Positions 21,009 through 22,129 of a stretch of DNA of 30,184 nt are shown piece by piece. This DNA comes from a virus: positions 1 to 30,184 of the IMG/VR virus record IMGVR_UViG_3300010403_000242. One strand, given 5' to 3'. The notes under the pieces are model-generated. The model was not told the origin of the DNA. It made no database searches and was given only the letters and a program-made list of their open reading frames with translations. The stretch's first letter is position 1; the number at the start of each line of letters is the position of its first letter. The translations under genes and the position numbers were made by a program.

Positions 21009-21163
21009 CCCGCTGGATGGCGACGAATTTTTGGTTTTCGACCTGGCGCCTGCGTGTCGCGCAAGCCAAGGAACGCAAAGAAGAAACCCACGGATACCAG
21101 CGCGCGGCGGTGATCGCGCAGGCGTTTTATGTGATGTCGCTGGCGCTGGAATCGAAGCGATGA
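21005..21163 (+). CDS. 52-residue basic hypothetical protein
   Basis: ATG 21005 overlaps the stop of the mini membrane gene, and its own stop overlaps ATG 21160. Aromatic, basic N-terminus (RWMATNFWFSTWRLRVAQ) and a helical C-terminus. Not recognised; supported by overlaps on both sides. Confidence 0.4.
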   Translation: MTRWMATNFWFSTWRLRVAQAKERKEETHGYQRAAVIAQAFYVMSLALESKR

Positions 21164-21357
21164 TTGAACAAAATCAGTCGACTGAGATGCCAAAATGCGG
21201 ATCAATCATTAACCATGGGATGTGTAAATGCTATTCCGCTTACCACAAAAAACTTGAAGCCGTTGCACGAGCTGCCGAAGCGCATCGCAAGCGATGTAAA
21301 GGCGATGACATCAGTCCCCTTGATTTGGCATTGGAATATTTAAGGGACTCCGAATAG
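21160..21357 (+). CDS. 65-residue hypothetical with Cys triplet
   Basis: ATG 21160 chosen because it overlaps the previous stop; an upstream in-frame extension to 21031 overlaps the preceding gene fully. Cys residues in KCGS and MCKC suggest metal binding; the rest is a basic helix. Its stop shares a base with the GTG start of the methyltransferase (TAGTG). Not recognised. Confidence 0.45.
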   Translation: MIEQNQSTEMPKCGSIINHGMCKCYSAYHKKLEAVARAAEAHRKRCKGDDISPLDLALEYLRDSE

Positions 21358-22076
21358 TGTATGGCCTGGATCTATTTAGCGGAATCGGCGGAATCACTAA
21401 AGCCTTGGACGGGTATGTCCAGCCAATCGCCTATTGTGAGAACGAGCGATACGCTCAAGCTGTACTTTTGTCGCGTATGCGGACAAGAGACATTCCGATT
21501 GCGCCTATCTGGGACGATGTGCGAACACTCCAAAAACGACATTTACCCTGTATGCCCGATATCATTTACGGAGGATTTCCTTGTCAAGACATCTCCATTG
21601 CGGGCAATGGAAAAGGCTTGGATGGAGAGCGAAGCGGACTTTTTAGCGAGATCGTACGGCTCGTTAGCGATATACGACCATCGTTCGTTTTCTTGGAAAA
21701 CTCATCAGAGATCGCTAGTCGAGGATTGGGAACCATTGCCACGACGTTTGCCGGATTACGGTATGAGTTTAGGTGGATCACTTTATCCGCTGGAGATGTC
21801 GGAGCTCCGCATTGCCGGGAGAGATGGTTTTTTATGGCGTACTCCAACAGCGGAAGAGGGAACGGGCGGATCGCAGACACCGGAAAAACGCAAAGCTGGA
21901 AATCACTCAGTCCACCTGCGCGATCAGCTTGGTGGTCAACCGAACCCGATGTGGTTAGAGTGGCTAATGGGTTACGAATACCGTTCAGGGTGGACCGTCT
22001 TAGGGGTCTTGGAAACGCTGTGGTACCGGCCCAGGCGCGGGAAGCGTTCGAACGTCTCATCGGCATCAAAAAATAA
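21357..22076 (+). CDS. dcm: DNA (cytosine-5) methyltransferase
   Basis: 239 residues from GTG 21357, ribosome site AAGGGA about 9 nt upstream. Transfers a methyl group from S-adenosylmethionine to cytosine, probably to protect phage DNA from host restriction. Motifs: DLFSGIGG (I, SAM), GGFPCQDIS with catalytic Cys76 (IV), FLENSS (VI, usually ENV), GAPHCRERWFF (VIII region) and RLRGLGNAVVP (X). The target-recognition region is short, so the enzyme is compact compared with 300-400 residue relatives. No partner restriction enzyme is present. A second long frame fully overlaps it. Confidence 0.85.
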   Translation: MYGLDLFSGIGGITKALDGYVQPIAYCENERYAQAVLLSRMRTRDIPIAPIWDDVRTLQKRHLPCMPDIIYGGFPCQDISIAGNGKGLDGERSGLFSEIVRLVSDIRPSFVFLENSSEIASRGLGTIATTFAGLRYEFRWITLSAGDVGAPHCRERWFFMAYSNSGRGNGRIADTGKTQSWKSLSPPARSAWWSTEPDVVRVANGLRIPFRVDRLRGLGNAVVPAQAREAFERLIGIKK

Positions 22077-22104
22077 AAATCATCGTCGACAGAAATCAAT
22101 TTGA
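21361..22104 (+). CDS. Dual-coding partner of dcm in the +1 frame
   Basis: A 247-residue frame begins 4 bases after the dcm start and covers the entire gene. It is unlikely to be a shadow: it contains VCGQETFRLRLSGTMCEH, DFLVKTSPLRA, WKTHQRSLVEDWEPLPRRLPDYGM, LWRTPTAEE (from residue 158) and NPMWLEWLMGYEYRSGWT (from residue 195). From memory, these match a conserved phage protein (often annotated as methyltransferase-related) with the WLMGFPxGWT signature. Such a frame staying open by chance is roughly a one-in-100,000 event in random codons. A later start, for example ATG 21415, is possible. Role unknown. Confidence 0.6.
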   Translation: MAWIYLAESAESLKPWTGMSSQSPIVRTSDTLKLYFCRVCGQETFRLRLSGTMCEHSKNDIYPVCPISFTEDFLVKTSPLRAMEKAWMESEADFLARSYGSLAIYDHRSFSWKTHQRSLVEDWEPLPRRLPDYGMSLGGSLYPLEMSELRIAGRDGFLWRTPTAEEGTGGSQTPEKRKAGNHSVHLRDQLGGQPNPMWLEWLMGYEYRSGWTVLGVLETLWYRPRRGKRSNVSSASKNKNHRRQKSI

Positions 22105-22129
22105 CACCCGCGCACGTATTTAGCATTAT
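22101..22129 (+). promoter_or_regulatory. Promoter with operator-like inverted repeat
   Basis: TTGACA (22101-22106), 17 bases, then CATTAT (22124-22129) form a strong -35 and a 4-of-6 -10. CGCGCA (22109-22114) and TGCGCG (22129-22134) are a perfect inverted repeat placed in the spacer and just past the -10, where a repressor would block RNA polymerase. It should drive the replication block. The -35 overlaps the stop of the +1-frame gene. Confidence 0.6.

Follow-up and report, generated by a model that had tools for sequence, protein, structure and literature searches.

The window analysed here, a virus record of 30,184 bases taken as a whole, most probably encodes a naturally split C5-cytosine DNA methyltransferase, the two subunits of which are specified by one DNA segment read in two frames. 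This reading draws on comparison with relatives, in which both frames are open, conserved, and under selection and divide the domains of the enzyme between them. The two genes and their start signals lie as follows.

21357..22076, plus strand: the dcm frame, 239 aa with a GTG start, assigned by PF00145 and phrog_363 as the catalytic (alpha) subunit of a C5-cytosine methyltransferase.
21361..22104, plus strand: the +1 frame, 247 aa with an ATG start, open, conserved, and matching phrog_1008, the proposed nested partner (beta) protein.
21342..21347, plus strand: Shine-Dalgarno-like AAGGGA, 9 nt 5' of the dcm GTG and 13 nt 5' of the +1 ATG.
21355..21359, plus strand: TAGTG, in which the stop codon closing an upstream ORF shares bases with the GTG that starts dcm, as read from the sequence and the ORF list.

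Both ORFs lie where the original prediction had placed them, with a dcm gene starting at GTG 21357 and an open +1 frame at 21361-22104. The +1 ORF begins 4 nt past the dcm start and ends 28 nt past the dcm stop; the predicted 4-base offset was therefore correct, but the cover of dcm, which had been called complete, leaves out the first 4 dcm bases, all others being read in both frames. A Shine-Dalgarno-like 4-mer is present upstream in 94 of 111 relatives. The upstream ORF runs from ATG 21160 to 21357, and its TAGTG stop/start overlap suggests that its translation is coupled to that of dcm, just as the spacing of 4 nt between the dcm and +1 start codons suggests coupled translation of these two, for which the original prediction had supposed a possible fixed 1:1 coupling. 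The neighbours of the locus are phage genes, encoding a YqaJ-type exonuclease, RecT, a replication-initiation-like protein, VRR-NUC, and a terminase-like protein. An antisense ORF of 180 aa (window 21584-22126, minus strand) is likewise open over the overlap and is probably a by-product of the constraints from both sense frames.

The +1 frame is more open than expected by chance. When synonymous dcm codons were shuffled, 7.3 stops were expected in the +1 frame of the window, where none is present, and none of 500 shuffles gave zero stops; the +2 frame is ordinary (11 stops observed, 10.4 expected). Searches of viral contigs returned 37 loci via the +1 protein and 18 via the dcm protein, and in almost every case the two frames correspond to the two proteins of the window in the same +1 relation, the exceptions being three fragments or deleted copies. 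Because queries with the +1 protein favour open +1 frames, the search was repeated from the dcm side only. A +1 homologue was found in the +1 frame at 80 of 80 loci in this dcm-side search with alignment, and 72 distinct relatives fetched by the dcm protein only had no stops in +1 codons 66-160, where 191 were expected; in the +2 frame of the same relatives, the same codons held 290 stops against 296 expected. A further 141 relatives contained a single +1 stop (370 expected). The same nested +1 gene is also carried by a divergent methyltransferase subfamily in which CPCQP and FGEQ replace GFPCQ and ENV, and between motifs IV and X none of its 76 distinct loci has a +1 stop, where 242 would be expected. 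The dcm-frame linkers of this subfamily (L365-L370 and L371-L450) are long and 'ADA/ANS'-rich, and resemble what WPTPTA repeats of the +1 protein would give when read in the dcm frame.

In single-chain C5-methyltransferases from bacterial genomes, the number of +1 stops agrees with expectation. Within the family, the long form, to which the window belongs, begins its +1 frame with an ATG 4 nt downstream of the dcm start at 50 of 60 loci fetched from the dcm side, the dcm start itself often being GTG, TTG, or unclear. Short-form relatives have a later +1 start, and the first 20-60 codons of their +1 frame are closed, with 71 stops against 63 expected in +1 codons 2-55. Since the short form is open only where the +1 gene is present, the signal tracks the +1 gene and not a peculiarity of codon use in the family.

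Conservation was examined in both directions. With the dcm protein fixed and its synonymous codons shuffled, the median +1 identity between the window and its relatives was 0.36, against 0.23 in the null; with the +1 protein fixed, the median dcm identity was 0.58, against 0.22 expected. All pairs tested showed more +1 conservation than the dcm protein imposes. For the short form, the excess of +1 conservation had a median z of -0.1 in the early codons and 6.3 from codon 65 on; the corresponding value for single-chain C5-methyltransferases was 0.3.

The frame under selection changes along the locus. Among 170 close pairs, which are interrelated rather than independent and include none closely related to the window, codons 1-165 diverge mostly at dcm third positions. 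From 60 to 31 codons before motif X, divergence is instead 0.21-0.29 at dcm position 1 and 0.01-0.05 at positions 2 and 3, a pattern that corresponds to the wobble of the +1 frame, and from motif X onward it is back at dcm position 3 (0.23 vs 0.07). Across all pairs at 60-80% identity, codon-position divergence between motifs VIII and X is saturated and is informative only over the final 20 codons ahead of motif X. The +1 wobble between motifs VIII and X implies that the stretch in which a TRD and motif IX would be expected is read mainly as +1 protein. Stops, two-way conservation, and the frame of selection thus give strong support to the earlier proposal that a single piece of DNA encodes two real proteins, and the relatives clearly do not show constraint in the dcm frame only, with stops in the +1 frame.

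By its sequence, the dcm-frame protein has the catalytic characteristics of a C5-cytosine DNA methyltransferase (PF00145). It matches PF00145 at E=1e-34 over profile positions 3-167 and phrog_363 at E=8e-58, and its frame includes SAM-binding motif I, PCQ, EN (motif VI), RxR (motif VIII), and GN (motif X). Two of these sites serve as landmarks.

21579..21587, plus strand: the catalytic Pro-Cys-Gln (motif IV) in the dcm frame, from the sequence.
22011..22028, plus strand: motif X (GNAVVP) in the dcm frame, from the sequence.

In an alignment of 85 relatives, dcm residues 73-76 (GFPC) and G219 are invariant and N220 is conserved in at least 90%; the +1 reading across the catalytic PCQ site is the DFLVKTSP stretch. 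An AlphaFold model of the dcm product built from 85 sequences has a mean pLDDT of 83.5; most of residues 1-165 and 221-239 exceed 90, and residues from about 171 to 215 are at low pLDDT, disordered between the well-folded halves. The closest solved fold is M.HhaI (Z 21.6, 192 residues, rmsd 2.7). The dcm frame gave no motif-IX signal, the canonical motif-IX matrix scoring as it does for shuffled sequence. Taken with the disorder of residues 171-215 and an alignment to M.HhaI of only 192 residues, this score suggests that an in-frame small domain (TRD plus motif IX) is missing from the dcm chain. The protein therefore resembles the single-chain enzymes M.HhaI and M.HaeIII in the fold of the catalytic domain and in motifs I-VIII and X, but differs from them in appearing to have no small domain.

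Two segments of the +1 protein are candidates for the corresponding region.

21823..21939, plus strand: the putative target-recognition region in the +1 protein, from WxTPxA on, based on +1 wobble and cassette exchange; the dcm frame here encodes the disordered stretch that links motif VIII to motif X.
21940..21978, plus strand: motif-IX-like segment of the +1 protein, PNPMWLEWLMGYE, based on a weak matrix match and a predicted helix at residues 196-203.

The +1 product is a member of phrog_1008 ('DNA methyltransferase'; profile match at E=3e-12) and of phrog_26627 (unknown). The family consensus of the motif-IX-like segment is LNPxWVEWLMGxP, and the best match to the canonical motif-IX window converges on it, with weak scores, in 51% of 111 +1 proteins, a convergence that tops that of every other canonical C5-methyltransferase window. 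The motif-IX score in +1 proteins has a median of -4.4, against 28.7 for genuine motif IX and -8.0 for shuffled sequence, and in the window's own +1 protein the best score falls elsewhere than in this segment. The assignment is a statistical match that we regard as a lead and not as proof, since the scores are weak, the window's protein is not among the clear cases, and hhalign of the +1 family against single-chain C5-methyltransferases returned no hit. The AlphaFold model of the +1 protein (mean pLDDT 59) is reliable only in a helix at 78-98, a hairpin at 103-114, and the helix at 196-203; Foldseek found no match to this model, and a sequence search of the PDB with the +1 profile yielded nothing credible.

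The region between motifs VIII and X also behaves as an exchangeable unit. The variable stretch of the +1 protein from motif VIII to motif IX ranges from 24 to 162 residues, and pairs with more than 90% identical catalytic parts often carry unrelated variable stretches, the converse also being seen. Locus L224 and the locus of Pseudomonas phage phPA-G (L058) share 94% of their DNA sequence as far as motif VIII, after which they carry unrelated inserts of 271 and 121 nt, respectively; beyond the inserts identity is back to 88%. Both frames stay open in the two loci despite a VIII-X cassette of different length. Methyltransferase recognition domains are exchanged as cassettes in such a manner.

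A model of the system can be proposed from these observations. The dcm frame would encode the catalytic (alpha) subunit, with motifs I-VIII and X, for catalysis and the cofactor, and the +1 frame would encode the nested beta subunit, the C-terminal half of which would carry the target-recognition region and the motif-IX-like segment. In the recognition region the dcm chain would form a disordered linker, and the N-terminal half of the +1 protein would lie overprinted on the catalytic domain. With start codons 4 nt from each other, alpha and beta would be produced together and may assemble into one enzyme, which probably labels phage DNA and thereby shields it from host restriction. From the comparison we infer translation of both frames, assembly of the products, a need for both subunits, and this biological role. 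A two-protein modification system, as originally suggested, is the most likely function judged from comparison alone; the suggested alternative of an anti-restriction system found no evidence past the usual role of a phage methyltransferase. More broadly, we consider it reasonably likely that the nested, frame-split heterodimer is common, and perhaps usual, for C5-methyltransferases of tailed phages of several bacterial phyla, together with the following steps of origin and cassette swapping. The recognition domain would have come into the +1 frame through frame changes, after which the remainder of the partner would have been overprinted on the catalytic domain, and phages would change specificity by swapping a cassette that is read as recognition domain in one frame and as linker in the other.

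Alternatively, the +1 protein may be real and selected but not a methyltransferase subunit, acting instead, for example, by blocking host restriction or regulating the methyltransferase. The absence of a confident fold or homology linking it to the methyltransferase small domain, along with the weakness of its motif-IX resemblance, would suit such a role, which we nevertheless consider unlikely: the +1 protein never occurs outside a dcm gene in our sample, fills exactly the stretch where dcm is without a small domain, includes a stretch that swaps as a cassette, and converges at the motif-IX position. In 369 gammaproteobacterial and 7 further genomes searched with phrog_1008, all matches overlap a dcm gene in the +1 relation and no standalone +1 gene was found, nor was one found among the genome-contig loci fetched by the +1 profile. 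The original prediction had counted a lack of +1 homologues outside dcm loci against the gene; none was found, yet this does not refute it, because a nested subunit should not be found except within its partner. The proposed membership of its motifs in a conserved phage family did hold, as phrog_1008 is matched by 45 of 45 aligned relatives, with every member examined lying inside a dcm gene.

A second possibility is programmed ribosomal frameshifting to give one fused enzyme, with motifs I-VIII from the dcm frame and the recognition region from the +1 frame. The selected frame does switch at the boundary of motif VIII and the TRD and back at motif X, as frameshifting would predict. Such a fusion would, however, need no open +1 frame upstream of motif VIII, where codons 66-160 are stop-free and highly conserved, would not account for a separate +1 ATG in most long-form relatives, and could include motif X only through two opposite shifts, all of which make it very improbable. 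Finally, that the +1 frame is a non-coding shadow, held open by dcm codon use and protein sequence, fits the location of every +1 homologue within a dcm gene but is scarcely credible given zero stops where 7.3 (window), 191 (72 relatives), and 242 (second subfamily) were expected, ordinary stops in the same family where the +1 gene is absent, and selection that tracks the +1 frame between motifs VIII and X.

The preferred reading, a methyltransferase split into two subunits encoded by one DNA segment, has a precedent by analogy in M.EcoHK31I, the nearest of the known systems. This enzyme is part of an E. coli restriction-modification system and needs both subunits for activity; Lee et al., in 1995, reportedly placed its small-subunit gene inside the large-subunit gene, in another frame. 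M.EcoHK31I is a two-polypeptide C5-methyltransferase with motifs I-VIII and X in the large chain and motif IX in the small one, and M.AquI has motifs I-VIII in one chain and part of the recognition region plus motif IX in another (PMC3404938). The layout of the dcm chain, with motifs I-VIII and X and without IX, is like that of the large chain of M.EcoHK31I. A partner gene nested in the other frame of the large-chain gene is a further likeness to the layout reported for M.EcoHK31I. Unlike M.EcoHK31I, the present locus belongs to a phage, has no restriction enzyme seen nearby, and has a partner gene that spans nearly the whole catalytic gene from 4 nt after its start; moreover, the predicted TRD of M.EcoHK31I was assigned to the large subunit, whereas here the evidence puts the recognition region in the partner. 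No adjoining restriction enzyme was found among the neighbours scanned at three more divergent genomic loci. M.AquI is similar in having the catalytic motifs I-VIII in one chain of two but has motif X in its small subunit, unlike the dcm chain, which contains it (GNAVVP).

Relative to these systems, what would be new is that the arrangement occurs in phages, that the overlap is nearly complete, that the recognition region is assigned to the nested protein, and that the spread seems so wide. The entries for phrog_1008 and phrog_26627 state no nesting in a methyltransferase gene, whereas every member examined here is nested. We found no description of overlapping or nested phage methyltransferase genes in the literature searched, most subscription journals excepted, which is weak evidence of novelty. 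If true, the arrangement would rank, in extent and in spread, among the foremost full-length overlaps of genes on the same strand in double-stranded DNA phages, and would offer a clean setting in which to study how two folded functions are served by a single DNA sequence. Under the two-subunit reading, dcm alone should be inactive and could look dead in tests, and phrog_1008, a large hidden family, would gain a function.

Phage C5-methyltransferases are usually annotated as one gene. Some of the records looked at list the dcm frame only and two list the +1 frame only, and annotations that name one of the two genes probably miss half of the enzyme. In the records of Vibrio phage 1.236.O (L285:696-1394) and phPA-G (L058:1501-2229), the +1 frame is annotated as 'hypothetical protein' and the methyltransferase frame is absent; in other records the reverse is usual, with the dcm frame given and the +1 frame absent.

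The nested dcm/+1 arrangement was seen in hundreds of related phage sequences, from phages of several bacterial phyla. Isolates with both frames include Salmonella phage S9-5, Acinetobacter phage vB_AbaM_ABMM1, Pseudomonas phage phPA-G, Vibrio phage 1.236.O, and Sulfitobacter phage phiGT1, as well as Synechococcus phages S-H1 and Ssp-JY42, Mycobacterium phage SG4, Paenibacillus phage Paisley, and Lactobacillus phage Lc-Nu. Of these, Salmonella phage S9-5, mycobacteriophage SG4, and Lactobacillus phage Lc-Nu would allow direct tests.

Several copies are interrupted or incomplete. Viral contigs L056:1501-1642 and L057:1501-2362 retain only the first 17-28 and the last methyltransferase codons, the middle being deleted or replaced. 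At L038:1000-1496, an insertion of ~480 nt with an HNH-endonuclease-like frame, possibly a homing element, lies directly 5' of the methyltransferase PCQ motif. Gp74 and gp75 of Mycobacterium phage Llama (L360:301-1060) are methyltransferase halves split by a frameshift that breaks the nested protein as well, and several related phages gave this split match too. In a prophage of E. coli PCP07014 (L356:701-1462), the methyltransferase is marked as a pseudogene with an internal stop; a +1 stop lies at nearly the same place as this internal stop, so that both proteins are lost together.
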